Source: Terriglobia bacterium (GTDB taxonomy: Bacteria; Acidobacteriota; UBA6911). From it: a DNA stretch of 64,000 nucleotides. The stretch is from positions 1 through 64,000 of the forward strand of contig JAIQGI010000034.1 in the NCBI GenBank assembly GCA_020072565.1. The letters are read 5' to 3'. A program made the position numbers and the translations under genes. Below are positions 7,891 through 63,854 of this stretch, in pieces (the first letter of the stretch is position 1; each line of letters opens with the position of its first letter). The notes beneath the pieces are model-generated. The model was not told where the DNA came from. It did no database searches and saw only the letters and a program-made list of their open reading frames with translations.

Positions 7891-8445
7891 ATGAGACTTC
7901 CATTCAATGAGGCAAAATTGACGCAGGCTGCGGCCCGTTTGCTGAAGCTTAATCAGGGAAAAATGAACTATATGTCTCTGATAAAAATCCTCTATCTTGT
8001 TGACCGCACAGCATTATTGACTTGGGGACGGCCCGTCACCACCGATTGTTACGTTTCCATGGACAAGGGGCCAGTTCTGAGCAAAACCCTCGATCTCATA
8101 AACGAAAAAAGGGAACCAGGCACAGATAGTTTTTGGGCAAGACACGTATCCGCACCAAGGAATTATTCTATAATGCTCTTGAGGAATCCTGGTACAAGCG
8201 AACTGTCAAGAGCAGAAGAAGGCCTCATCCAAGCAGTTTTCATGGAGCATCAATCGAAGACTCCATGGGACTTGGTTAAATTCGTTCACAGCCTGCCAGA
8301 ATGGCAAGATCCAGAGGGTAGTGCTATTCCTATTACCTATGCTGAGATCCTAAGAGCGGGAAAAAAGACAGATTCTCAAGTCTTGGAGATTAAAGAGGAA
8401 TTGGATTCTCTCTCCGCCCTTCACGACATTATTTGCTCTCATTGA
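7891..8445 (+). CDS. panA: Panacea-domain (SocA/DUF4065-like) antitoxin
   Basis: A 184-residue protein with the hallmarks of the Panacea domain: MNYMSLIKILYLVDRTALLTWGRP near the start, then YVSMDKGPVLSKTLDLI, and TPWDLVKFVHSLPEW towards the end. Proteins of this family neutralise diverse toxins encoded next to them. The gene starts just after a candidate promoter and is followed after 7 bases by a PemK-like protein, giving the usual antitoxin-then-toxin order. The C-terminal 30 residues (QVLEIKEELDSLSALHDII) form a helix that could contact the toxin. It is cargo of the IS1-type element, where it could stabilise the element. Gene symbol is used for the family. Confidence 0.82.
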   Translation: MRLPFNEAKLTQAAARLLKLNQGKMNYMSLIKILYLVDRTALLTWGRPVTTDCYVSMDKGPVLSKTLDLINEKREPGTDSFWARHVSAPRNYSIMLLRNPGTSELSRAEEGLIQAVFMEHQSKTPWDLVKFVHSLPEWQDPEGSAIPITYAEILRAGKKTDSQVLEIKEELDSLSALHDIICSH

Positions 8446-50158: not shown

Positions 50159-53100
50159 TCATGCCGTCAGTGACTTCCTGACCTCGAAGTTCCACTTCCA
50201 GATCTCGTAAATCGCGGGATACACCACCAGTTCCAGCAGAAACGATGTGAAAATCCCGCCGATCATCGGCGCCGCGATCCGCTTCATGACATCCGAGCCC
50301 GTCCCGGTGGCCCACAGGATCGGGACCAGCCCGAGGAACGTGGTGGCAACGGTCATGAACTTCGGGCGGATGCGCTTAGCGGCTCCGTGGATGATGGCGT
50401 CGCGCAGCTCGGAGAGGCTGCCCAGCCGTCCCTCCTTTTTCGCCTGTTCGTAAGAGAGGTCGAGGTAGAGCAGCATGAACACGCCGGTCTCGGCGTCGAC
50501 CCCGAGCAGTGCGATCAGCCCGACCCAGACGCCGATGCTCATGTTGTAGCCCAGCAGGTAGAGAAACCAGATCGCCCCGATTGCGGAAAAGGGAACAGCC
50601 AGGATGACGATCAGGGTCTTGGTGATTGCCCGCGTGTTGAGGTACAGGAGCAGGAAAATCAGGAACAGTGTCAGCGGCACGACCAGCGTCAGCCGCTGCT
50701 TGACCCGCTGCATGGCCTCATACTGGCCGCTCCAGAACAGGGCATATCCGGGCGGCAGTTGCACCTTGCTCCTCAGGATCAGATCCGCCTCTTCGATGTA
50801 GCTTGCCGGGTCGCGCCCGGCGATGTCCACATACACGTAGCCGGTCAACAGGCCATCTTCGTTGCGCAACATCGATGGCCCGGCGGTGGCGCGGATCTCG
50901 GCGAGCTGTCCAAGCGGGATCTGTCTTTGCCCTTCTCCCACCGGCACCAGCACCCGGCCCAGCGCTCCGAGGTCGGACCGGAAATCGCGCATGTAGCGGA
51001 CGTTGACGGGGTAGCGCTCACGTCCCTCGACGGTGGTCGTGACATTCTCTCCGCCGATCGCGTTTTGCACCGCACTTTGAGCTTCGTCGATGCTCAGCCC
51101 GTAACGGGCCAGCTCTTCACGATTCCAGGCAAAATCGAGAAAGTATCCGCCCCCGGTGCGCTCCGAAAACACGTTCCGGGTTCCTCGAACGTCGGGCAAC
51201 AGCGCTTCGACCTGAGTGCCGATTTCCTCGATCGTCTGCAGGTCGGCGCCGGAGATCTTGAGCCCGATCGGGGTGCGCATCCCCGTAGTCAGCATGTCGA
51301 TCCGGCCTTTGACGGGCATGGTCCAGGAGTTCGAGACTCCCGGGAGCTTGAGAGCTTCATTCAACTGATTGACCAGTTCCTCCTGCGAGATGTGATCAGG
51401 CGTGATGCGCCGGAAGATGGGTTTGATCCACTCGGGCGCCCAAGAGGAGTACCAGGTCCCGATCCTGCGCCACTCGTTGTCGGGTTTGAGGGTGATGACG
51501 GTTTCCAGCATCGAGAGGGGCGCCGGGTCGGTCGGCGTTTCGGCTCGGCCGGCCTTGCCCAGCACGCGATCGACTTCCGGGAATTGCTTGATGATCCGGT
51601 CGGTGATCTGCAGCAGTTTTTGGGCCTCGCCGATGGAAATGCCCGGCATGGTGGAAGGCATGTACAAGAGCGAGCCCTCAGCGAGTGGCGGCATGAATTC
51701 CGAGCCGAGCTTCAGGTAGACCGGGATTGTAAGGACGACCAGCGCGCAGGCCACCCCGATGACGCTCCACTTCCAGCGCAGCGACCAGGCCACAACCGGT
51801 TCGTAAAGGCGGATCAGCCGGCGGCTGATCGGATGCTTGTCTTCAGAATGAATCGTGCCGACCAGAAGGGCGTTCGCGGCCTTGCGCAGCCAGGCCGGGC
51901 GGAACTCAAAGTTCTTGAGGTGGGTGAACATCAACCGCAGAGCCGGATCGAGCGTGATCGCAAGCGCCGCTGCCACGATCATCGACAGGTTTTTCGTATA
52001 CGCGAGCGGCTTGAACAGGCGCCCTTCCTGCGCTTCCAGTGTCAGCACCGGGAGGAACGAAACCGCGATCACCAGGAGCGCGAAGAAGCTGGGTCCGCCC
52101 ACTTCCTTGACAGCGTTGATGATGACGGTGCGGTAGTCCTCTTTCCGGTCGGTGCGCTGCCAGTATTCGAGCTTCTTGTGCGTCTGCTCGACTACGACAA
52201 TCGCGGCATCCACGAGCGCCCCGATCGCGATGGCGATCCCCCCCAGAGACATGATGTTGGATGTGATCCCGAGAAACCGGAACGGGATGAACGAGATCAG
52301 CACTGCGATGGGTATGGTGATGACGGGGATCACAGCGCTGGGGAAGTGCCAGAGGAAGATCAGGATGACCAGCACCACGGTGATGATGACCTCGATCAGG
52401 GTGGACTTCAGGTTGTCGATGGAGCGCCGGATCAACTCGGAGCGATCGTAGATGGGGACGATCTTTACGCCGTGCGGAAGGCCGGGTTCGATCTGGCGTA
52501 TCTTCGCCTTGACGCGCTCGATGACGTCGAGCGCATTCTCTCCCTGCCGCATCACCACGATGCCGGAGACGGTTTCGCCGGTGCCGTCCAGGTCGGAGAC
52601 TCCTCGGCGCAAATCCGGGCCCAGCACGACCTGCCCGACGTCCTTGACGCGAATCGGGGTGCCGTTATCGCTGGCGATCAGAACGATATTCTCAATGTCG
52701 TGGATCGAGCGGGCATAGCCGAGGCCGCGCACCATGTACTCGGTGCCGCCGAACTCGATCAGGCGGCCGCCGACGTCATTGTTGCCGCCGCGCACGGCTT
52801 CCACGACGCGGTTGATGGCGATTCCGTAAGCTTGGAGCCGGTTGGGATCCACATTCACCTGGTACTGCTTGCCGAATCCGCCTATGGGTGCGACCTCGGC
52901 GACGCCCGGGACCGACTTGAGGTAATAGCGGAGGTACCAGTCCTGGTAGGAGCGCAGTTCCGCAAGGCTGTGCTCGCCGGAATTGTCGACAAGGACGTAC
53001 TGGAATATCCATCCCAGGCCCGTGGCGTCGGGGCCGAGTTCGGTTCTCACGCCGTCGGGGAGGCGGGCCAACACGCCGGAGAGATATTCCAGCGTGCGCG

Positions 53101-53419
53101 AGCGCGCCCAGTAGATATCGGTGCCGTCCTCGTAGACGACATATACGTAGGAGTAGCCGAAATCGGAAAACCCGCGGACCGCCCGTACCCGGGGTGCGCC
53201 CAGCATTGCCGTAACAATCGGATACGTGACCTGGTTTTCGATGATGTCGGGGCTGCGGTCCCAGCGCGAATAAACGATCACCTGCGTATCGCTCAGATCC
53301 GGAATCGCATCGAGCGGCGTGTGCGTCATCGACCACCACCCACCTATAGCGGCGGCCAGTGCCAACGCGATAATGATGATCTTGTTATTTGCGGAGAATT
53401 CGATAATACGATTAATCAT
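50159..53419 (-). CDS. cusA: CusA/CzcA-type heavy-metal efflux RND transporter
   Basis: A 1,086-residue inner-membrane protein of the heavy-metal-efflux (HME) RND family. It starts with the conserved helix MINRIIEFSANNKIIIIALALA and DAIPDLSDTQVIVYSRWDRSP, and has GALVDAAIVVVEQ in transmembrane segment four and GVWVGLIALLGVDAETGVFMLLYL near the end, which are typical of CusA/SilA. The periplasmic porter part contains the Met-rich stretch and two large domains. It extrudes metal ions such as Cu(I)/Ag(I); the exact metal is inference. The adaptor (53656-55116) and a YHS protein lie upstream on the same strand. No CusC-type outer-membrane channel is visible. Confidence 0.9.
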   Translation of the reverse strand: MINRIIEFSANNKIIIIALALAAAIGGWWSMTHTPLDAIPDLSDTQVIVYSRWDRSPDIIENQVTYPIVTAMLGAPRVRAVRGFSDFGYSYVYVVYEDGTDIYWARSRTLEYLSGVLARLPDGVRTELGPDATGLGWIFQYVLVDNSGEHSLAELRSYQDWYLRYYLKSVPGVAEVAPIGGFGKQYQVNVDPNRLQAYGIAINRVVEAVRGGNNDVGGRLIEFGGTEYMVRGLGYARSIHDIENIVLIASDNGTPIRVKDVGQVVLGPDLRRGVSDLDGTGETVSGIVVMRQGENALDVIERVKAKIRQIEPGLPHGVKIVPIYDRSELIRRSIDNLKSTLIEVIITVVLVILIFLWHFPSAVIPVITIPIAVLISFIPFRFLGITSNIMSLGGIAIAIGALVDAAIVVVEQTHKKLEYWQRTDRKEDYRTVIINAVKEVGGPSFFALLVIAVSFLPVLTLEAQEGRLFKPLAYTKNLSMIVAAALAITLDPALRLMFTHLKNFEFRPAWLRKAANALLVGTIHSEDKHPISRRLIRLYEPVVAWSLRWKWSVIGVACALVVLTIPVYLKLGSEFMPPLAEGSLLYMPSTMPGISIGEAQKLLQITDRIIKQFPEVDRVLGKAGRAETPTDPAPLSMLETVITLKPDNEWRRIGTWYSSWAPEWIKPIFRRITPDHISQEELVNQLNEALKLPGVSNSWTMPVKGRIDMLTTGMRTPIGLKISGADLQTIEEIGTQVEALLPDVRGTRNVFSERTGGGYFLDFAWNREELARYGLSIDEAQSAVQNAIGGENVTTTVEGRERYPVNVRYMRDFRSDLGALGRVLVPVGEGQRQIPLGQLAEIRATAGPSMLRNEDGLLTGYVYVDIAGRDPASYIEEADLILRSKVQLPPGYALFWSGQYEAMQRVKQRLTLVVPLTLFLIFLLLYLNTRAITKTLIVILAVPFSAIGAIWFLYLLGYNMSIGVWVGLIALLGVDAETGVFMLLYLDLSYEQAKKEGRLGSLSELRDAIIHGAAKRIRPKFMTVATTFLGLVPILWATGTGSDVMKRIAAPMIGGIFTSFLLELVVYPAIYEIWKWNFEVRKSLTA

Positions 53420-53490
53420 ATGAGTCCGTGAATGTCGTGTCTGTTGTGCGGGGCCTGTGCTTCGAGTTCCTGAACAGGCCGGAGCGCCGG

Positions 53491-53655
53491 CTATTTCCTG
53501 ACGTATTTCTCGGGACTCTTGTCAAACTGCGCCTTGCAGGAGTCGGCGCAAAAGTAATAGGTGACCTCCTTATATAGGCTCGTCCTGCCCACTGCCTTGG
53601 CTTTGTCGCGGTCCACGTCCATGCCGCACACAGGATCCTTGCATTTGTCGGACAT
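53491..53655 (-). CDS. Stand-alone 54-residue YHS-domain metal-binding protein
   Basis: A short gene between cusA and cusB on the same strand. The protein has the YHS signature: DPVCGMDVD near the start, then YYFCADSCKAQFDKSPEKY, with metal-binding Cys residues. Its ATG directly follows the cusB TAG, with an AAGGGG box in the 3' end of cusB. Its sequence resembles the C-terminal YHS domain of CusB, so it may be a duplicated metal shuttle handing metal to the pump. Such proteins are commonly missed because of their length. Confidence 0.85.
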   Translation of the reverse strand: MSDKCKDPVCGMDVDRDKAKAVGRTSLYKEVTYYFCADSCKAQFDKSPEKYVRK

Positions 53656-55116
53656 CTATTTCCCCTTGATGGCAGCTTTCGCCGGTGCCTTTTCCGCGTA
53701 CTGCTTCGGATTCTTGTTAAACTTCTGTTCGCAATCGTCGGAGCAAAAGTAATAGGTCTTCCCCTGGAAGTCTGTTTTTCTGCCTGCCGCGATTGCTTTG
53801 CTCAAGTCTATATCCATGCCGCAAACCGGATCCCTGGCCGCCTCTCCATAGATTCCCGTGGCCGCAGCCTTCATGCGGCTCTCAGAGTCGATCAGGAAGG
53901 TGCCCGAGACGACGATTCGTTCGCCCGCGTTGAGTCCCGACCGGATTTCCACCCGGTTGTCAAACCGCCACCCCGTTTCCACGGTGCGCGGCTCGAAGAA
54001 TCCGTTGCCGCGATCGACAAAAACCGTCTTGCGCAGCCCGGAGTCCACCAGCGCGTCCGCGGGGACGACGAGAGTTGCCGGCATATACACCGACATTTCC
54101 ACGTCCACAAACATCTCGGGTCGGAGGACATACGCGGGATTATCCACTTCGAGTCGTACCTTGAAGGTTCGGGTGGCGGCGTCGAACTGGGGCAGAACAT
54201 CGCTCACTCGAGCCGTGATCTTCTCATCGGGCTCACCCGGAGGCTTCACGACGGCAGTCACCCCCGGACGAATGTCTCTGGCCTCCGTCTCAAAAACATC
54301 CGCGACCACCCAGACGTGGCTGAGATCCGTAATTCTGTAAAGCTCGAAATTTCGCTCGAAGCGCAGGTTGGGGAAAATGTTGCGGGCCACCACAAACCCC
54401 TTCACCGGCGCCCTGACCTCGATCTCCTGGGCAGGCGTGCGGCTGCGCTCGATCTCCTGCAATTGGGTCGCGCTCATGCCGAGAGCCATGAGGTTCGCTT
54501 CGGCCGCCTTGATCTGAATGTTTGCCGCACTGACCTGATTCTCGGACCCCTCGGCAGTTTTGTACCGTTCCAGAGTGTTAACAGCAAAAAAGAGCGCCTG
54601 CTCACCCGCCAGCAGGTCTCGGCTATAATAGGTTGCGAGGACCTGGTCGTTCTCGACGAGGCTTCCGGTGGTGCCGCCCCGCAATGCCCGCACCCAGCCG
54701 TCAGTGGGCGTGATCAGGCGATAGATACGGTTTTCGTCCATCGTCACCCGCCCGACAAGCCGGATCGCGCGCGTCCCCGACACACGCTCCGCCGTGGCCA
54801 CGCGCACACCGATCACTTGCTGTCTTTCCGGGCTGACTCTCGCCGACCCTGGAGGCATGGATGCCGACGCTTGTTCAGATGAATCGGATCCTGGCGCTCC
54901 GTCGGCATAAACGGGCTCGAGCGGCATGCCGCAGTCCGGCGCGTTCCCCGGCTTGTCGGATTTATATGCCGGGTGCATCGGATCAACATAATAGAGAATG
55001 CGGCGGCTTCCGGGAGGGTCAGGCTTGCCTGATATCCGGCGGTAGTGCCAGGAACCGGCCAGAAACGCTCCTCCCAATAGAAGAGCCGAAAGAAGCCCGT
55101 ACACAACTTTCTTCAT
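53656..55116 (-). CDS. cusB: CusB-type periplasmic adaptor with C-terminal YHS domain
   Basis: A 486-residue protein with an N-terminal signal/anchor (VVYGLLSALLLGGAFLAGSW). An HMBD-like segment (YYVDPMHPAYKSDKPGNAPDCGMPLEPVY) binds metal near the N-terminus. Membrane-fusion-protein core: barrel/lipoyl parts around GWVRALRGGTTGSLVENDQVL, a helical hairpin, then AVVKPPGEPDEKI. The last 60 residues are a YHS domain (DPVCGMDIDLSKA, then YYFCSDDCEQKFNKN). A YHS domain fused to CusB is found in some bacteria and could receive metal from chaperones. It is the first gene of the efflux operon. Confidence 0.85.
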   Translation of the reverse strand: MKKVVYGLLSALLLGGAFLAGSWHYRRISGKPDPPGSRRILYYVDPMHPAYKSDKPGNAPDCGMPLEPVYADGAPGSDSSEQASASMPPGSARVSPERQQVIGVRVATAERVSGTRAIRLVGRVTMDENRIYRLITPTDGWVRALRGGTTGSLVENDQVLATYYSRDLLAGEQALFFAVNTLERYKTAEGSENQVSAANIQIKAAEANLMALGMSATQLQEIERSRTPAQEIEVRAPVKGFVVARNIFPNLRFERNFELYRITDLSHVWVVADVFETEARDIRPGVTAVVKPPGEPDEKITARVSDVLPQFDAATRTFKVRLEVDNPAYVLRPEMFVDVEMSVYMPATLVVPADALVDSGLRKTVFVDRGNGFFEPRTVETGWRFDNRVEIRSGLNAGERIVVSGTFLIDSESRMKAAATGIYGEAARDPVCGMDIDLSKAIAAGRKTDFQGKTYYFCSDDCEQKFNKNPKQYAEKAPAKAAIKGK

Positions 55117-56596: not shown

Positions 56597-57382
56597 ATGT
56601 CCGAGTTCCAAAAGCATCTTTATCTGATCCTCTATCCCAATGAAGCGCTGGTGGCGTCGCAGCTGTCACCGGAGGCATTCGGCAAGCACTACTCGATCGG
56701 CAGCCCGCGGCACTTCCAAGGCAAGGTGATCTTTGCCGAGGTGGACATTAACTACCGAAACGAATACCTGCGCATCGACGAGTACCTGAGTCAGACCGAG
56801 AAGGCGGGCGGACCCAAGCGCACCAAGTTTGTGAAGTCCTACCGCGTGCTCGAACACGTCGACTTCTCCGCCCTGCACAAACTGTATCTGGTCTCGACGG
56901 ACGGGGCGGTGTTGGGACTGGACAAGGGTGAAGAACCGGTGAGCCCGCGGAAGGAAAACCATTTGCGCGTGTATCAGGAGATTTGTCCGCTGCGGCTGCT
57001 GGTGGCCTCCAATCTCGACCCACACGAATTCGGCAGTTACATTACCAAGGAGTCGTGGTCCAAAGGTGCGCCCAGGATTTTCTTCACTCAATACGATATC
57101 AATGTCGAGGAAATCGTCAGCCGCAACGAAGTGCATGCGTTCGGCACGGGGCCCTTGCCCAATGTGAATCCTGCAAACCTGCCTGCGGCCCTTCAGGAGT
57201 TGACGGCTGATCCCACCAAGAAGACCAAGACGGTCAGCCTCAATCCCAGCCTGGACGTGATGAGCTACAAGTCGATCCAGCCCGGGTTCTGGTTCGCTGA
57301 TGGGACGTCGATCGTTTTTTACCGCATGCCCACGATGGATGAGTTGCACTACAAACACTACCACTGGTGGCGCCACCTTTGA
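56597..57382 (+). CDS. Unknown 261-residue protein with internal duplication
   Basis: No family recognised. The start ATG 56597 has GGAG 10 bases before it. The protein is soluble and contains two related halves: ALVASQLSPEAFGKHY followed by GKVIFAEVDINYRNEY in the first, and LLVASNLDPHEFGSYI followed by APRIFFTQYDINVEEI in the second. Both halves share an xxVASxLxPxxFG and a xxFxxxDIN core, so the domain is duplicated or forms a pseudo-dimer. The C-terminus ends with aromatic residues (HYKHYHWWRHL). The function is unknown; it is upstream of the RraA-like operon on the same strand, separated by 169 bases. Confidence 0.6.
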   Translation: MSEFQKHLYLILYPNEALVASQLSPEAFGKHYSIGSPRHFQGKVIFAEVDINYRNEYLRIDEYLSQTEKAGGPKRTKFVKSYRVLEHVDFSALHKLYLVSTDGAVLGLDKGEEPVSPRKENHLRVYQEICPLRLLVASNLDPHEFGSYITKESWSKGAPRIFFTQYDINVEEIVSRNEVHAFGTGPLPNVNPANLPAALQELTADPTKKTKTVSLNPSLDVMSYKSIQPGFWFADGTSIVFYRMPTMDELHYKHYHWWRHL

Positions 57383-57551
57383 TCCTGCACGGGGCGCGCC
57401 CATGTGCCTGAAAAACTCATGCATCTCTGTTTGGCAAACATCGATATCGCAATCGGAGCTCTTAGCGGGCAAGAGCCGATAGCGATTGCGATACCGATGA
57501 TTTGTGCTTAACAGTTTTATCTATGAAGTGGAGAGCCTATTAGATGGAGGA

Positions 57552-58238
57552 ATGACTATTCATATCACAGGGAAAATCGGATTCAGGATACTCAGCGAGG
57601 TGCCTCGTCCCGAGGTGGCACTGGTCGCGCAGTATCGGGGGCTGGCCTCGCCCAATCTGGCTGACGTCATGGGCAGGTTCCACTTCATGGATCAGGGCAT
57701 CCGGATGAGGACTGGTGTGCCGCTATGCGGCGTCGCAGTGACCGTCATCGCGCGGCCGGGCGACAACCTCATGGTGCACAAGGCCATGGAAATCGCCGGT
57801 GCCGGAGATGTGATCGTTGTGAATACATGCGGCAACACGACCAGCGCAGTCTTCGGCGAACTCATGGGCAATTCCGCAATTGCGGTCGGTTTGGGAGGAC
57901 TCGTCGTCGACGGTGCGATCCGTGACGTCGAAGCACTCGCGGAGTTGCGCTTTCCGGCATTCAGCCGCTCTGTCTGTGCGGGCGGCTGCGACAAGGACGG
58001 CCCCGGGGAGATCAATGTCCCGATCGCCTGTGGAAACACTGTCGTCATGCCCGGCGATATCCTCATCGGTGACGCGGACGGCGTGGTCGCCGTTCCTCGC
58101 GAGGACGCCGAAGAGGTGCTGAGGCTGGTCAAAGTGCTCATAGAACGCGAGTCCAGGCGAATCGAAGAGATTCGCAGCGGCAAGATTTTCAAGGGTGAGA
58201 TCAACGACACGCTCAGGTCCAAAGGCGTGATTCCATGA
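57552..58238 (+). CDS. RraA-like aldolase/decarboxylase (HMG aldolase family)
   Basis: A 228-residue protein from ATG 57552 (TGGAGG upstream). The RraA/HMG-aldolase fold is seen in PNLADVMGRFHFMDQGIR, then the GxxxxR/D site as GGLVVDGAIRDVEALAEL, and GDILIGDADGVVAVPREDAEEVL. Members cleave 4-hydroxy-4-methyl-2-oxoglutarate (HMG) to two pyruvates or decarboxylate oxaloacetate. Unlike RNase E inhibitor RraA, the conserved Arg-Asp pair for catalysis is intact. It is the first gene of the operon and its last bases overlap the aminotransferase gene (ATGA at 58235-58238). Confidence 0.8.
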   Translation: MTIHITGKIGFRILSEVPRPEVALVAQYRGLASPNLADVMGRFHFMDQGIRMRTGVPLCGVAVTVIARPGDNLMVHKAMEIAGAGDVIVVNTCGNTTSAVFGELMGNSAIAVGLGGLVVDGAIRDVEALAELRFPAFSRSVCAGGCDKDGPGEINVPIACGNTVVMPGDILIGDADGVVAVPREDAEEVLRLVKVLIERESRRIEEIRSGKIFKGEINDTLRSKGVIP

Positions 58239-59326
58239 CCCTCCTGCTCATGACTCCCGGACCGACGCGTGTCCCCGACCGTGTGCTCGCGGCTGGTGCG
58301 ACGCCGATGATCCACCATCGGACGGAGGAATTCTCCAGGATTCTCGCATCCACACTTGAACGGCTCCGCCCTCTGTTCGGGACCGCTGGCGATGTGCTGC
58401 CGGTGCATGCCACCGGCCGGGGCGCACTCGAAGCGGCCGTAACCAACTTGTTGTCGCCCGGCGATGAGGTGTTGGCTTGCTGCAACGGCCTGTTTGGTGA
58501 AATGTGGGCCAAGATCGCTCAAAAGTTCGGCATCGTCGTCCACCGCGTCTGTTGCGATTGGGGAACCTCGGCTGATCCGCTTCTGATCGAAGCGGCGCTC
58601 GAAGCCCATCCCCACAGCCGTGCCGTGATTCTCGCTCACAGCGACACGTCGACCGGCGCGTTGAATGATGTGGCCGCGATAGCAGGCGTGACCGGTCGCA
58701 CCGGCGCACTTTTCATGGTGGACGCCGTCAGTTCGCTCGGCGGTGCACCTTTTCGCTTTGACGACTGGGGCGTGGATGTGGCGGTGACCGCCTCACAGAA
58801 ATGCCTGATGTCGAGCCCCGGGCTCTCCTTTGTGGCGTTGAGCGAGAAAGCGTGGAAGGCGCACGAAGCATCGCGTCTGGCGTGCTCGTACTTCGATTTT
58901 CCGGCGATCAAGCGCATGCTGGCCCGTCCCAAACCGGAAACCCCCGGGACAACGCCGGTTCACCTTTTGCTTCAGGTCCACGCCGCGCTGGGACTGATCG
59001 AAGCAGAGGGCCTCGAAAACGTGTATGCGCGCCATGAGGAGATGGCCCGGTTGGCTCGCGAGGGAGCGCGCGATCTCGGAATGTCGCTGCAATGCCCCGG
59101 CCTGAAACGGTTCTCTCCGACGTTGACGGCAATCAGGGTGCCGGATGGCATTTCGCCCCAGTCGATCCGCGACCAGCTGAAGGCACGCGGCATCCTCACG
59201 GCACGCGGGCTGGGAGGCTACGAAGCAACCAGCTTTCGGATCGGCCACATGGGCGATATCCGTCCCGCGGACGTTCGGCGCACCCTGGACGCACTTGGAG
59301 AAGTCGTTGGGGCACTGGGGCGATAG
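58235..59326 (+). CDS. Class V aminotransferase (alanine/serine-glyoxylate type)
   Basis: A 363-residue PLP enzyme. Its start overlaps the preceding gene by 4 bases (ATGA). Motifs fit AGXT-type class V transaminases: MTPGPTRVPDRVL at the start, HRTEEFSRIL, ATGRGALEAAVTNLLSPGDE, DAVSSLGGAPFRFDDWGVDVAVT and the PLP Lys in ASQKCLMSSPG. The C-terminal part (GLGGYEATSFRIGHMGDI) is the usual substrate-contact region. Natural donors for the family include serine, alanine or aspartate-like amino acids, with glyoxylate or pyruvate as acceptor. The context points to an amino acid that enters this operon's pathway. Confidence 0.82.
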   Translation: MTLLLMTPGPTRVPDRVLAAGATPMIHHRTEEFSRILASTLERLRPLFGTAGDVLPVHATGRGALEAAVTNLLSPGDEVLACCNGLFGEMWAKIAQKFGIVVHRVCCDWGTSADPLLIEAALEAHPHSRAVILAHSDTSTGALNDVAAIAGVTGRTGALFMVDAVSSLGGAPFRFDDWGVDVAVTASQKCLMSSPGLSFVALSEKAWKAHEASRLACSYFDFPAIKRMLARPKPETPGTTPVHLLLQVHAALGLIEAEGLENVYARHEEMARLAREGARDLGMSLQCPGLKRFSPTLTAIRVPDGISPQSIRDQLKARGILTARGLGGYEATSFRIGHMGDIRPADVRRTLDALGEVVGALGR

Positions 59327-59348
59327 TGTCAGTGAAATGCAAAGGACT

Positions 59349-59412
59349 GCCGCAGAGGGTGCAGAGAATTCGGAGTTGAGGCTGGAATTGCTGTGCGTCC
59401 TCTGCGTTAAGC
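59349..59412. repeat. Dispersed palindromic repeat, AACGCAGAGG family (copy 5)
   Basis: GCCGCAGAGGGTGCAGAGAA and GTGCGTCCTCTGCGTTAAG lie in the gap between the aminotransferase and hydratase genes. It is a partial palindrome inside the operon, so transcription must pass through it or restart after it. Confidence 0.6.
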
Positions 59413-59512
59413 TTCTGAAGCGTGGGGTAATTTTCATGTGCATGGGTGTGCCATTGCGCATGGGTGGCGGCTTTAGATTCGTTATCCTTCGATCTGGATG
59501 CGGTAGCAGGGC

Positions 59513-60784
59513 ATGACGGGCAAGACCATCAGCGAGAAGATACTGTCGGAAAAGTCGGGGCGGGACGCACGGGCCGGCGACCTCGTGGTCTGCGCGGTCG
59601 ACTACGCAATGGCTACGGACGGCTCGGCTCCCATGGCGATCGACTACTTCGACGAAATGGGGGGATCCCGGGTATTCGATCCGGATCGGATCGTCTTCGT
59701 GATGGACCATTACTGCTCGCGCGCTCACTCGAAAACCTCGGAACTGCAGAAACGGATGAGGGCTTTTGCGCAGAAGCAGGGGATCGGCGTCCACGATGTG
59801 GGCGCAGGCATCTGCCATCAGCTGATGATAGAGACCGGACGGACCCGACCGGGTGGCCTTCTGGTCGGGGCAGACAGCCACTCAGTGACGGGCGGCGCGC
59901 TGAACGCGTTTGCGACTGGGATCGGTTCATCAGATCTCGCCGCCACAATGATCTGCGGGCGCATATGGCTGAAGGTGCCGCAAACGATCAAAGTCACGCT
60001 TACGGGCCATCCGGGGTCGGGCATATACGCGAAAGATATGGCGCTGGCGCTCGCGGGTATGCTTGGTGCCGATGGCGCCGCCTACCAGACGCTCGAATTC
60101 GACGGACCTGCGGCGACCGGATTGGATGTCGAGGACAGGCTCGTTCTCAGTAACATGTCGGTCGAGATGGGGGCGAAAGCGGGCATCTTCAAGGCCGACC
60201 GGAAGACTCTCCAATATCTCGGGGCGCGCACGGCGGCGCCGCTCAGACCGGTCGAAGCCGATGCCGATGCCCGGTACAGCCGGGAGATCACACTGGAGGT
60301 GTCGGAGCTCGCTCCCATGATCGCACGGCCGCACGCGGTGGATAACGTGGCCGCCATCGGCACTTCAGCAGGCACACCGGTACAAATGGTCTTCCTGGGC
60401 ACATGCACGGCGGGCAGAGTGCGCGACTTTCATCAGGCCTTGCGGATCCTTAATGCGGTCGGGCGCATCGCGCCGGGAGTGCAACTGGTCGTGACCCCCG
60501 CTTCCACAGAGGTCGAAGCAGAGCTGAGACGGGACGGGACGCTCGACCGGCTTGCGGCCCTGGGCGCGACGATCCTGCCGCCGGGATGCGGTCCTTGTTG
60601 CGGCACTGCCGGCCCCACACCGGCGGATGGGGTGAACGTGATGTCTACGGCCAATCGCAACTTCAAAGCCCGGATGGGGAACGCAGCGGCTTCGATCTAC
60701 CTCGCATCGCCGGCCGCCTGCGCGGCTGCCGCAGCGACGGGCCGGATCACCGATCCGCGTGAGATCGAGGGGCGCTCGAAATGA
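59513..60784 (+). CDS. Aconitase-family (LeuC-like) hydratase large subunit
   Basis: A 423-residue protein with the [4Fe-4S] cluster Cys residues of isopropylmalate isomerase-type enzymes: FLGTCTAGR and GCGPCCGTAG. Other conserved parts: DHYCSRAHSK, ADSHSVTGGALNAFATGIGSSDLA and NRNFKARMG. This size matches the 420-residue bacterial LeuC and homoaconitase-like subunits. The substrate is not leucine-pathway by context, as no leuA or leuB is present. Overlap of the stop with the next start (ATGA, 60781-60784) couples it to the small subunit. Confidence 0.85.
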   Translation: MTGKTISEKILSEKSGRDARAGDLVVCAVDYAMATDGSAPMAIDYFDEMGGSRVFDPDRIVFVMDHYCSRAHSKTSELQKRMRAFAQKQGIGVHDVGAGICHQLMIETGRTRPGGLLVGADSHSVTGGALNAFATGIGSSDLAATMICGRIWLKVPQTIKVTLTGHPGSGIYAKDMALALAGMLGADGAAYQTLEFDGPAATGLDVEDRLVLSNMSVEMGAKAGIFKADRKTLQYLGARTAAPLRPVEADADARYSREITLEVSELAPMIARPHAVDNVAAIGTSAGTPVQMVFLGTCTAGRVRDFHQALRILNAVGRIAPGVQLVVTPASTEVEAELRRDGTLDRLAALGATILPPGCGPCCGTAGPTPADGVNVMSTANRNFKARMGNAAASIYLASPAACAAAAATGRITDPREIEGRSK

Positions 60785-61284
60785 GAATCGCGCTCTCAGG
60801 CAAAGCCAGGTTGCTGGGTGACGACGTCAACACGGATTACATCATTTCGTCCAGCCGGAAGAAGGAAACGCTGGAGGCCGATGCCTTGAAGCGCTATCTG
60901 CTGGAAGCTCTGGACCCGGCCTTTGCTGCGTCGGTCACACCTGGCGATTTGCTGGTGGCCGGCAGGAACTTCGGGTGCGGTTCGGCGATGGAAGTGGCCG
61001 TTACCGTGATCCTGGCCGCAGGGATCAAGGCGGTGCTTGCCCGGAGCTTTTCCCGAACGTACTATCGCAACGCGATCAACAATGGGCTGATCCCGCTCGA
61101 GTGCAACACGGCCGGGATCCGGGAGCAAGATGAGTTGCGCGTCGTGCTCGACGATGCAGGCGTCCGCGTGACGGATCTGACTCAAAGGCGCCAGATAGCC
61201 GGCGTTCCATTGCCCGGCATCATGCTCGATATCCTGAGCGCCGGGGGACTGGTGCCCTATTTCCGGAAGTACCGGACCCTATGA
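60781..61284 (+). CDS. Aconitase-family (LeuD-like) hydratase small subunit
   Basis: A 167-residue protein that matches LeuD-type subunits: LGDDVNTDYIISSS at the start, the GRNFGCGSAMEVAVTVILAAGIKAVLARSFSR core with the substrate-binding segment, and NNGLIPLECN. The small subunit contributes the swivel domain to the hydratase. The last bases overlap the transporter start (ATGA, 61281-61284). Confidence 0.85.
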   Translation: MRIALSGKARLLGDDVNTDYIISSSRKKETLEADALKRYLLEALDPAFAASVTPGDLLVAGRNFGCGSAMEVAVTVILAAGIKAVLARSFSRTYYRNAINNGLIPLECNTAGIREQDELRVVLDDAGVRVTDLTQRRQIAGVPLPGIMLDILSAGGLVPYFRKYRTL

Positions 61285-62579
61285 AGCTGCACACGAAGAT
61301 ATTGATAGGATTGATTTCAGGTGCTGCTGCCGGGGTCGCTTCCCGAGCGGCAGGATTCGCGTGGGCCCAACGCGCGCTTATTGCGATAGAGCCGGTGGGC
61401 ATGGTCTTCGTGCAACTCATCATGATGGTCGTCATCCCGCTCGTGGTGGGGAGCCTTTTCGTGGCGATGGCCTCGCTGGGTGAGGGCCGCAGGCTGGCAA
61501 AGCTGGGCGGGCGAACCCTGGCTTATTTTCTGCTGACAACGATGATAGGATCGATCATCGGACTGTCGCTCGCGCTTCTCGTGCGTCCGGGCGCCGGGCT
61601 CGACCCGGCCATCCGGGATGCTCTGGCGGCGCAATCCGAAGCAAATGCCGGCAATGCGGTGGCTACCGCCAACTCGGCTCCGGGGATAGCCCAGCTGCTG
61701 CTCTCCATGATTCCCCAGAATCCGTTTGGCGCGGCCGCCAGGATGGAACTCCTTCCCCTGGTGATTTCCACCGTCATTTTCGGCGTGGCGGCGAGCCGGA
61801 TTGCGGAAGGGCGCCGTCAGGTGATCGTGCGCTTTTTCCAGGGGCTCAACGACATCTGCATGGTGATCATCGCCTGGGTGATGAAGCTGGCGCCTTATGC
61901 GGTCTTCGCACTGATCGGCGCGACAGTGGCGAGGTTCGGCACCGACCTGCTCCAGCACTTGATCGTGTACTGCCTGGTCGTCTTGGCGGGGCTGCTGCTC
62001 CACATGTTCGGCATCCTGACCCTGGCGCTCAGGTTGCTTGCGCGCGTCAAAGTGGCGGATTTTTACCGCGGAGTCGCCAAGGCACTGCTGGTCGCATTTT
62101 CCACCTCCTCATCCAATGCAACGCTGCCGGTGAGCATGGAGGTAGCAGAGGAGAACCTGGGCGTGCCGGCGGAAGTGGCCGGTTTCGTGCTTCCTCTGGG
62201 CACAACTCTGAACCTCAACGGCGCCGCCGTCTATAAGAGCGTTACAGCTGTGTTCGTTGCCGGAGTTTACGGCCTCACGCTGGGCCTTCCGGGATATGTA
62301 ACGATCATCGTGGCCTCGACGCTGGCCGCCATTACGGGTGTCGGCGTGCCGGGCAGCTCGCTGGTCACAACTCTCATTGTGTTCAATGCGATCGGGCTCG
62401 GCCCTCATGCGGTATCGGGAATCGCGCTCGTGCTCGGAGTGGACCGGTTGCTGGACATGCTGCGCACGACCGTAAACGTAACCAGCAGTCTTACGTGCGC
62501 CGCGTATATTGCCCGAAAAGACAGGGAAGAGAAGCTCCAAGCCGTCAAACAAGCTTCCACAGTTGCAAAGGTCCTTTGA
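61281..62579 (+). CDS. Dicarboxylate/amino acid:cation symporter (DAACS family)
   Basis: A 432-residue membrane protein. Eight or more hydrophobic segments are present, with the typical motifs: VGMVFVQLIMMVVIPLVVGSL, the Ser-rich loop AFSTSSSNATLPVSMEV, PLGTTLNLNGAAVYKSV and the VGVPGSSLVTTLIV loop. These are the substrate- and sodium-binding signatures of GltP/GltT/DctA-like carriers. It is the fourth gene transcribed with the hydratase and the last of the operon, and likely imports the dicarboxylate or amino acid that the enzymes process. Confidence 0.87.
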   Translation: MKLHTKILIGLISGAAAGVASRAAGFAWAQRALIAIEPVGMVFVQLIMMVVIPLVVGSLFVAMASLGEGRRLAKLGGRTLAYFLLTTMIGSIIGLSLALLVRPGAGLDPAIRDALAAQSEANAGNAVATANSAPGIAQLLLSMIPQNPFGAAARMELLPLVISTVIFGVAASRIAEGRRQVIVRFFQGLNDICMVIIAWVMKLAPYAVFALIGATVARFGTDLLQHLIVYCLVVLAGLLLHMFGILTLALRLLARVKVADFYRGVAKALLVAFSTSSSNATLPVSMEVAEENLGVPAEVAGFVLPLGTTLNLNGAAVYKSVTAVFVAGVYGLTLGLPGYVTIIVASTLAAITGVGVPGSSLVTTLIVFNAIGLGPHAVSGIALVLGVDRLLDMLRTTVNVTSSLTCAAYIARKDREEKLQAVKQASTVAKVL

Positions 62580-62641: not shown

Positions 62642-63793
62642 CTATAACCGGCTGATCGCCGCGGCCATGCGGTTGAGGGCGTCGGCGAGGATTTTTCGCG
62701 GGCAGGCAAAATTCAGCCGCACGTAACCTTCGCCGCCTTTGCCGAAGTCGGGCCCGTTGTTCAGCCCCACGCGCGCTTCTCTCAAGAAGAAATCGGCCGG
62801 GTTCCCTGGGATGCCGGCCTCTCTGCAGTCGAGCCAGGCCAGGTAAGTGGCTTCCATCCTGCACATCCGGATCGTGGGCATGCGCGCACGGATATACTCA
62901 GCGAGGAAATCCCGGTTGCCTTGCAGATAAGCCATGACCTGATCCAGCCACTCCTGGCCCTCTCTCAGGGCAGCAAGAGCGGCCACGTGCCCCATGATGT
63001 TGACTCCGGGGACGATCCCGTACGAGGTTTTTTGCCAGGTTTTGCGCAACTCGCTGTTCTTGATGATGGCGTATCCGCACTCCAGGCCGGCGACATTGAA
63101 TGTCTTGCTCGGCGCCATCAGCGTCACGGTTCTGTCGGCCACCTCAGGACCGAGTGCTGCAATCGGGATGTGGCGGCACTCTGAATAAACCAGGTCGCAG
63201 TGGATCTCGTCGGAGCAGATGATCAGCCGACGACGAAGACAAATCTCCGCGATGTTCTCCAGTTCCGCTTGGGTGAACACGCGGCCCACCGGATTATGGG
63301 GATTGCAGAGAATAAATACCCGGGTTTGTTCGGTGATCGACTTTTCAAACTGCTCGAAGTCAATCTCGTAAGAGTCGCCTTTCCTTACCAGGGGCGGGTC
63401 TGCGAGCGTCCTTCCGTGATGCACCGGATCCCTGAGGAAATGAAAATAAACGGGCGGCTGGGCCAGAATCGTCTCTCCGGCTCCGGCGTAAGCCTGAATG
63501 GCAAGGTTTAGGCCCGTTACCACCCCGGGAAGCAAGAGGATCTCTTCCTCCCTTACCTCCCATTGATAGAGTTTTCTCATTCTGTCCTGCACGGCAAGCC
63601 TGAGCGCCTGGGGGGGTCTGGTATACCCGAAGACGCCGTGATCAACCCGCTGGTGCAAGGCACGGATGATAGGCTCCGCCGACCTGAAATCCATATCCGC
63701 AACCCATAAGGGGATCACGTCATCGGGGTACACCCCCCACTTGATGCTGTCCGTGCCGCTTCTTTCTATAACTTGGTCAAAATCGTAATTCAT
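62642..63793 (-). CDS. patB: MalY/PatB-family PLP-dependent C-S lyase/aminotransferase
   Basis: A 383-residue protein from ATG 63793. Class I/II aminotransferase fold of the MalY/PatB group: DSIKWGVYPDDVIPLWVADMDFRSAEPI, FGYTRPPQALRLAV, CNPHNPVGRVFTQAELE, and the PLP Lys in APSKTFNVAGLECGYAI. These enzymes cleave cystathionine or cysteine-S-conjugates (beta-lyase) and may transaminate. It converges on the transporter gene of the preceding operon (62-base gap). No sulfur-metabolism partner is visible. Confidence 0.83.
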   Translation of the reverse strand: MNYDFDQVIERSGTDSIKWGVYPDDVIPLWVADMDFRSAEPIIRALHQRVDHGVFGYTRPPQALRLAVQDRMRKLYQWEVREEEILLLPGVVTGLNLAIQAYAGAGETILAQPPVYFHFLRDPVHHGRTLADPPLVRKGDSYEIDFEQFEKSITEQTRVFILCNPHNPVGRVFTQAELENIAEICLRRRLIICSDEIHCDLVYSECRHIPIAALGPEVADRTVTLMAPSKTFNVAGLECGYAIIKNSELRKTWQKTSYGIVPGVNIMGHVAALAALREGQEWLDQVMAYLQGNRDFLAEYIRARMPTIRMCRMEATYLAWLDCREAGIPGNPADFFLREARVGLNNGPDFGKGGEGYVRLNFACPRKILADALNRMAAAISRL

Positions 63794-63854
63794 CGCATGC
63801 TCTGGGAAAAAACCGGCCACGGATTGCAGAGCGCGAACTGGCCGCGAAAGAAAC

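Follow-up and report, generated by a model that had tools for sequence, protein, structure and literature searches.

What might hold together an RraA-like protein, a class V aminotransferase, an aconitase-type hydratase of two subunits (AcnL and AcnS), and a symporter of the SDF family, encoded one after another at positions 57552-62579 of a 64,000-nucleotide stretch of DNA from a Terriglobia bacterium (hereafter, the window)? The initial annotation had assigned these genes to a catabolic route for which it knew of no described pathway, and our literature search for the gene set likewise turned up no paper describing it.

Operon layout and its single interruption

All five genes lie on the + strand. 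The first (57552-58238) encodes a 228-aa protein assigned to the RraA-like class II pyruvate aldolases (PF03737, 140.8 bits for a cut-off of 24.5), with an alternative GTG start at 57504. It is followed by the class V aminotransferase (58235-59326; 363 aa; PF00266, 90 bits), the hydratase large subunit AcnL (59513-60784; 423 aa; PF00330, 300 bits), the small subunit AcnS (60781-61284; 167 aa), and an SDF (DAACS) symporter (61281-62579; 432 aa; PF00375, 367 bits), which is predicted to import acidic amino acids. The folds of these proteins are clear from their sequences. An ATGA overlap joins the aminotransferase to the RraA-like gene at 58235, and two others are found at 60781 and 61281. The earlier description of a single unit with three such overlaps therefore holds for the genes, their orientation, and the overlaps, but not for the junction between the aminotransferase and AcnL, where 186 bp without overlap (59327-59512) form the sole interruption in the operon.

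This gap contains a palindromic dispersed repeat (GCAGAGG...CCTCTGCG) that is predicted to form a hairpin (fold z = -3.1), and partial copies of it, mostly short and weak, occur at ~20 sites in the genome. A second promoter within the gap was considered and rejected, as a promoter scan of the gap returned no promoter-like site. In a relative from the same phylum (genome G256, locus L134), the five genes occur in identical order with spacings of at most ~20 bp, and the repeat is missing. Because that operon is compact without the gap, the 186 bp look like a lineage-specific repeat insertion into a formerly compact operon.

Conservation of the gene set among relatives

The gene set is a conserved module across at least four phyla or classes. 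An aminotransferase gene was found within 4 kb at 25 of the 28 loci of the operon's AcnLS subfamily, compared to 2 of 62 loci of sister subfamilies (Fisher p ~9e-17), and an RraA gene within the same distance at 22 of 28 compared to 0 of 62 loci (p ~7e-16), with the caveat that these p-values overstate independence since the loci are related by descent. Chance adjacency is ruled out by this linkage, and the genes are thus kept together rather than scattered in relatives, the outcome that the initial annotation had named as speaking against a shared route. The module is present in Acidobacteriota, Gemmatimonadota, Alphaproteobacteria, and Betaproteobacteria, with gene order shuffled among them, and the core AcnL clade received a support of 100/100. 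At three loci (L047, L064, and L080), RraA is missing within ~10 kb, which counts against the candidate route outlined below. The carriers of the module are distantly related soil bacteria. We consider it most improbable that ordinary AcnLS genes of the leucine/lysine type, or ordinary genes for glyoxylate aminotransferases, became neighbors here by accident: while every protein does come from a common family, such a reading would have to account for a module with statistical linkage in four or more phyla or classes, as well as for a separate LeuC/LeuD pair in the genome and for the leucine-pathway equivalog cut-offs that the hydratase misses (see below).

Orthologue searches by alignment identified an orthologue in 1 of 395 other genomes of the phylum and in 11 of 298 other genomes of the Burkholderia family, while none was found in 288 other genomes of the Bradyrhizobium class. 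When the large subunit alone was compared to 100 relatives, the search yielded only matches of 47%, which can be regarded as paralogues, because they carry the small-subunit motif GCGSSRE (see below). Plasmid searches yielded one useful locus (L034), and a search for viral relatives found none.

Predicted activities of the hydratase, aldolase, aminotransferase, and symporter

In hydratases of the AcnLS type, the active site is formed by two subunits. Here, both score above the cut-offs of archaeal-type subfamily models (AcnL, PRK00402, 485.9 bits for a cut-off of 385; AcnS, TIGR02087, 139.6 bits for 109), and fall below the equivalog cut-offs for isopropylmalate isomerase (LEU2, 380/611 bits; leud, 113/246) and homoaconitase (HacA, 369/550; HacB, 130/230). 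Translation and alignment indicate that AcnL retains DH, DSH, the Fe-S cluster cysteines, and NRNF..R, and that AcnS retains the catalytic Ser, features shared, along with the subfamily scores, with archaeal-type LeuCD and homoaconitase, including the MJ isopropylmalate/citramalate isomerase (4kp1 and 3vba). Unlike these enzymes, in which the small subunit reads GCGSSRE, AcnS of the operon and of all core relatives reads GCGSAME (GCGSAMEVA in the operon), i.e., the Ser-Arg following the catalytic Ser is replaced by Ala-Met, and its loop carries the motif [ST].RK[KR] (NTDYIISSSRKK in the operon). AcnL of the core group further differs by T35 (Q/H in others), V125, and G/A300 (N in others). Elsewhere in the genome, contig C7 carries a LeuC/LeuD pair, and another pair, LeuCD-like, is found on contig C27; this separate LeuCD, along with the absence of any equivalog match, rules out leucine or lysine biosynthesis for AcnLS. 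AcnLS belongs to an uncharacterised aconitase-family branch from which an arginine that is otherwise conserved has been lost.

Aconitase X acts on substrates without a second vicinal carboxylate, and its equivalent residues, which touch the substrate, are also altered (PMC8184944). By analogy, the loss of the AcnS arginine would be compatible with HMG, which also lacks a second vicinal carboxylate. A search of the literature on 4-methyleneglutamate catabolism and on the role of the aconitase arginine returned nothing direct, and no enzyme of the aconitase family is known to us that hydrates an exo-methylene group. A CHA-type substrate (oxalomesaconate/CHA) for AcnLS and RraA would come with citrate-like chemistry natural for an aconitase, and the loop of AcnS, rich in Arg/Lys, points to a substrate with several carboxylates; yet CHA does have the vicinal carboxylate, which leaves the lost arginine unexplained.

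The RraA-like protein scores slightly below the cut-off of NCBIfam PRK06201 (227 bits for 231) and misses the HMG/CHA equivalog cut-offs (PRK09262, 167.6/179 bits; ligK_PcmE, 147.7/304.5). Nevertheless, it belongs to the PF03737 fold family of the HMG/CHA aldolases (LigK/PcmE/ProA/GalC; PDB 3NOJ) and shares eight of their residues (R40, N71, H75, G101, R123, D124, G144, and K147), including the catalytic R123, the metal-binding D124, and the active-site N71, H75, and K147; T145 is replaced by C, and E199 lies beyond the aligned region. The kept catalytic residues agree with its earlier designation as a candidate aldolase. The characterised relative 3NOJ cleaves HMG and CHA alike, which would suit a CHA-type substrate as well, although no aromatic ring-cleavage genes were seen adjoining the operon. 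HMG/CHA aldolases of the RraA type also decarboxylate oxaloacetate via the same pyruvate enolate (PMC5065237), and the last step could thus be a decarboxylation, with RraA acting as a beta-keto acid (oxaloacetate-type) decarboxylase on the transaminated, isomerised acid. We regard this version as improbable, given that the substrate-contact residues of the aldolase (N71, H75, and K147) are also retained and that a hydratase in the same operon fits an aldol substrate.

The aminotransferase is BhcA/AGXT/PhnW-like without equivalog assignment, the top-scoring model being BhcA (267 bits, far under the cut-off of 650). Outside Burkholderiales, the module aminotransferases belong to two class V lineages, and in Burkholderiales they are swapped for an unrelated class I protein (aspartate-transaminase-like PRK06107, 606/617 bits). 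Since class I and two class V lineages interchange, the module needs a transamination step rather than one specific protein. A PhnW-like aminotransferase could also form the 2-oxo acid of an amino phosphonate or sulfonate, and some loci do include a PhnS-like ABC transporter (L044, L045, and L080), the sulfopyruvate/phosphonopyruvate decarboxylase-like ComDE (L045 and L080), or an aldehyde dehydrogenase resembling phosphonoacetaldehyde dehydrogenase (L045). We nonetheless consider such a substrate very unlikely: the scores are far under the equivalog cut-offs (PhnS2, 148/393 bits; PhnAcAld_DH, 357/636), these genes are missing from the window and from most loci, and a pyruvate aldolase would be left without a role.

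When aligned with GltP and DctA of E. coli, the symporter shows the GltP-type VDRLLDM.RT..N, including the acidic amino acid signature D...LDM.RT, instead of the DctA-type IDRFMSEARA / IDRFMSEARALTN, and these signature residues disfavor the uptake of C4-dicarboxylates. Its best PDB match is an aspartate transporter (E = 2.5e-81). Among SDF/DAACS transporters (GltP, GltPh, and DctA), it is thus GltP-like in signature, yet shares only 30% identity with GltP of E. coli, with NLNG in place of NLDG, and it misses the GltP equivalog cut-off (227/638 bits). The transporter type beside the module changes repeatedly among relatives, and glutamate/aspartate transporters from three unrelated families were detected (SDF/GltP, 623/638 bits; GltS, PF03616, 280 bits; ABC binding protein, 350/375 bits). 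Many relatives, however, use TctC, TAXI-TRAP, and PhnS-like binding proteins without glutamate specificity, which speaks against a glutamate-like substrate. Because of the GltP-type signature and of these GltP, GltS, and ABC proteins in relatives, the symporter probably carries an acidic amino acid, as the initial annotation had supposed. The three glutamate/aspartate transporter types likewise argue for a dicarboxylic amino acid and against a CHA-type substrate, which is favored by the tricarboxylate-type TctC binding proteins at Cupriavidus-type loci and by TcuAB (tricarballylate dehydrogenase, 700 bits for a cut-off of 369) at locus L040; overall, we view CHA as an unlikely substrate.

A candidate route and its relation to known systems

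We lean, if only by a little, towards a general route in which the operon would serve the uptake of a C4-modified glutamate, an acidic amino acid, and its degradation to pyruvate, the order, direction, and substrate of the steps being those we infer. The SDF symporter would bring in the amino acid, and the class V aminotransferase would transfer the amino group of this compound to an acceptor such as pyruvate or glyoxylate (a 2-oxo acid), yielding a 4-substituted 2-oxoglutarate. The Fe-S hydratase AcnL/AcnS would then add water, or shift a hydroxyl, to place OH on C4, and the metal-dependent RraA-like aldolase would split the 4-hydroxy-2-oxo acid into pyruvate and a second 2-oxo acid. Among candidate substrates, 4-methyleneglutamate, converted via HMG to two pyruvates, is the best fit, although only tentatively so, and several other 4-substituted glutamates fit the route as well. 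HMG has been reported as a metabolite of plants and bacteria, and 4-methyl-2-oxoglutarate is a natural product (PMC9939733). The operon might, more speculatively, encode an undescribed full pathway for 4-methylene- (or 4-methyl-) glutamate, in which the route by which plants form these amino acids is reversed to two pyruvates and AcnLS hydrates a substrate without a vicinal carboxylate.

Alternatively, 3-hydroxy- or 3-hydroxy-4-methylglutamate could be transaminated, AcnLS moving the hydroxyl from C3 to C4 in the manner of isopropylmalate isomerase before RraA releases pyruvate along with glyoxylate or pyruvate. Isomerisation by dehydration and hydration is the usual reaction of the aconitase family (PMC8184944), and genes resembling threonine dehydratase/3-hydroxyaspartate ammonia-lyase (L040, L064, and L074) or threonine aldolase (L044) suggest beta-hydroxy amino acids. 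However, such genes are seen at few loci and are absent from the window, and we hold this hydroxyl shift to be rather doubtful. More broadly, some loci encode extra enzymes that a route via HMG would not require (sulfopyruvate-decarboxylase-like ComDE, aldehyde dehydrogenase, HyuAB, TcuAB, and threonine-dehydratase-like proteins), and these may reflect a different or broader substrate.

Through the module, a large number of genes with vague annotations (3-isopropylmalate dehydratase, RraA family, serine-glyoxylate aminotransferase) can be linked to a single conserved and testable pathway that spans four or more phyla or classes, and the AcnS signature (RK[KR] loop and GCGSAME) marks a branch of the aconitases whose active site is altered. 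If the version via HMG is true, it would provide a soil degradation route for plant-derived C4-branched glutamates, for which we found no described genes in the literature, and the hydration of a substrate without a vicinal carboxylate would be a new reaction for the aconitase family.

Compared to known systems, the plain beta-hydroxyaspartate cycle, which supplies the best model for the aminotransferase, has no place for a hydratase or RraA, and it is ruled out by the low BhcA score and by the lack of BhcB, BhcC, and BhcD in the operon. The closer parallel is the lower pathway of gallate/protocatechuate 4,5-cleavage (GalB or LigJ with LigK), which follows the same logic of a hydratase forming a 4-hydroxy-2-oxo acid from which an RraA-type enzyme releases pyruvate. 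In that pathway, however, HMG/CHA aldolase genes neighbor aromatic ring-cleavage genes, whereas the RraA gene of the operon neighbors an aminotransferase and a hydratase that is instead of the aconitase-type Fe-S family, and the precursor would derive from a transaminated, imported amino acid.

Operon layout and distribution of the module

The initial annotation had described five genes at 57552–62579, with an RraA-like aldolase (RraA), a class V aminotransferase, an aconitase-like hydratase, and a symporter among their products. The window sequence and family matches bore this out, placing all five genes on the + strand and showing the hydratase to be of aconitase type with two subunits (AcnL and AcnS) and the symporter to be of the SDF family, and they also confirmed the three ATGA overlaps (RraA/aminotransferase at 58235, AcnL/AcnS at 60781, and AcnS/symporter at 61281). 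The aminotransferase and AcnL are separated by 186 bp, a gap that holds the strong hairpin of a palindromic dispersed repeat (GCAGAGG...CCTCTGCG; 59335–59420). The genome carries ~20 further partial copies of this repeat, most of them short, and the orthologous operon of a same-phylum relative (G256, locus L134) has none. Since L134 carries the identical five-gene set in the same order, at 67–78% protein identity and with ≤~20 bp between neighbours, the most likely origin of the gap is an insertion that interrupted an operon. A scan of this gap identified no promoter-like site, and its terminator-like matches were weak and not above the shuffle background.

Around the operon, the 261-aa protein encoded directly upstream (56597–57382, +) has no Pfam or NCBIfam match, while a PatB-family C–S lyase (62642–63820, −; 470 bits against a cut-off of 340) is convergent with the operon and lies outside the conserved module. 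Judging from translation only, 50159–55116 (−) encodes a CusA/CzcA-like heavy-metal RND efflux pump and a membrane-fusion protein that appears to have a C-terminal YHS-type metal-binding domain.

To survey AcnS, a two-sequence alignment was used as query against one genome per species, yielding 80 loci, to which searches of Burkholderiaceae and the window's own phylum added 12. The subfamily of the window (core) displays '[ST].RK[KR]' in the specificity loop along with 'GCGSAME', whereas its sister groups have 'YKFKTLD'-type loops and 'GCGSSRE'. The genome neighbourhood search proposed in the initial annotation recovered the gene set: within 4 kb of AcnLS, an aminotransferase was found at 25 of 28 core loci vs 2 of 62 sister-group loci, and RraA at 22 of 28 vs 0 of 62, with contig ends cutting three of the six core loci lacking RraA (L039, L046, and L048). 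Core AcnL sequences form one clade (26 rows, support 100/100) spanning Acidobacteriota, Gemmatimonadota, and Alpha- and Betaproteobacteria. Within lineages the module is rare, being present in 1 of 395 further genomes from its own phylum, in 11 of 298 from the Burkholderia family, and in none of 288 from the Bradyrhizobium class, and this distribution suggests horizontal transfer.

A role of the operon AcnLS as the leucine enzyme was rejected, with a separate LeuC/LeuD pair carrying 'GCGSSREHAPW' on another contig (C7, L155). A further LeuCD/homoaconitase-like pair (contig C27, L154 2855–5916) adjoins an isocitrate/isopropylmalate-dehydrogenase-like gene.

REPLACEMENTS: gene order and exchanged aminotransferases and transporters

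The order RraA-AT-AcnL-AcnS-SDF (AT, aminotransferase) is found in the window, L134, and L040, alongside RraA-AT-SDF-AcnL-AcnS (L041), AcnL-AcnS-AT-RraA (L042, L043), and RraA-AcnL-AcnS-AT (L044); Burkholderiales display AcnL-AcnS-AT-RraA or AcnL-AcnS-RraA-AT. Burkholderiales instead have an aminotransferase of class I (606 of 617 bits for an aspartate transaminase model), and the class V enzymes of the module fall into two groups with a mutual identity of only ~37%. Transporters at module loci include SDF, near-GltP (623 of 638 bits), GltS, TctC, TAXI-TRAP, and PhnS-like ABC types, as well as a glutamate/aspartate ABC binding protein (350 of 375 bits). Because unrelated proteins with the same activity replace one another, these exchanges strongly argue that acidic amino acid uptake, transamination, hydration, and aldol cleavage belong together as steps.

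Several individual loci stand out. In Ramlibacter (L045 4914–16657), AcnLS is convergent with a run of genes for a class I aminotransferase, HyuA, HyuB, TctC, ComD, ComE, an aldehyde dehydrogenase, and RraA, apparently a longer form of the pathway with a lactam as its entry point. The Gemmatimonadetes locus (L040 1–15889) combines the module with TcuAB (tricarballylate dehydrogenase), a threonine-dehydratase-like enzyme, an aldehyde dehydrogenase, and MmgE/PrpD. An intermediate AcnS (L080 10004–10483; 'GCGSSME', Ser retained and Arg gone) adjoins ComDE and a PhnS-like ABC transporter, without aminotransferase or RraA, and is possibly a relative with another substrate. Finally, AcnS of Cupriavidus campinensis MJ1 (L034 ~7930–8010) seems to shift frame near its start relative to strain LMG 19282 (L053), through either a sequencing error or a mutation.

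Residue patterns and candidate substrate

In alignment, the symporter motif 'VDRLLDMLRTTVN' resembles 'VDRILDMARTALN' of GltP and differs from 'IDRFMSEARALTN' of DctA. In GltPh, binding of the amino group and side-chain carboxylate falls to the Asp and Arg within this motif. The catalytic motifs of AcnL are intact. Position 35, which by motif would correspond to Q72 of mitochondrial aconitase, is T in 26 of 26 core sequences and Q or H almost everywhere else, and the core has G/A instead of N at position 300. In AcnS, the catalytic S68 is intact, but every core member, including that of the window, has Ala-Met in place of the Ser-Arg that follows. Aconitase X likewise departs from Ser-Arg, its two residues after the catalytic Ser being Cys-Thr in contact with the substrate, and its substrates lack a second vicinal carboxylate (PMC8184944); by analogy with these changed residues and substrates, the window AcnLS may also handle a substrate of this type. 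4-hydroxy-4-methyl-2-oxoglutarate (HMG), without a second vicinal carboxylate, fits such a substrate, while CHA, the other substrate of the HMG/CHA aldolase, does not. RraA retains R40, N71, H75, G101, R123, D124, G144, and K147 of the Pseudomonas putida HMG/CHA aldolase in alignment, and substitutions of R123, G144, and K147 were reported to impair that enzyme (PMC5065237).

In the proposed pathway, the symporter would import an acidic amino acid, the aminotransferase would transaminate it, AcnLS would hydrate the product to a 4-hydroxy-2-oxo acid, and RraA would cleave the latter to yield pyruvate. With 4-methyleneglutamate as substrate, this route would lead to HMG and then to two pyruvates. 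4-methylene- and 4-methylglutamate are found in legumes, tulips, and ferns. According to a published report, HMG is a metabolite of plants and bacteria, and 4-methyl-2-oxoglutarate occurs as a natural product (PMC9939733). The extra genes at some module loci (HyuAB, ComDE, aldehyde dehydrogenase, TcuAB, threonine-dehydratase-like) point to feeder or side reactions that vary from one organism to another, and they leave other C4-substituted glutamates as candidates too.

Relation to known families and pathways

Every operon enzyme belongs to a known family. Based on Pfam and NCBIfam models, the RraA-like protein (PF03737) is nearest to the uncharacterised PRK06201 group and HMG/CHA aldolase, the symporter is nearest to GltP, and the aminotransferase is nearest to BhcA, pyridoxamine-pyruvate, and PhnW transaminases, far under every cut-off, while AcnL and AcnS pass only broad archaeal-type LeuCD/homoaconitase subfamily cut-offs. 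As far as the family libraries and a literature search covering few subscription papers indicate, the gene combination and the AcnS subfamily may be undescribed. The pairing of a lower-pathway hydratase with a pyruvate aldolase is itself of a known kind, and the operon counts as a variant of such systems.
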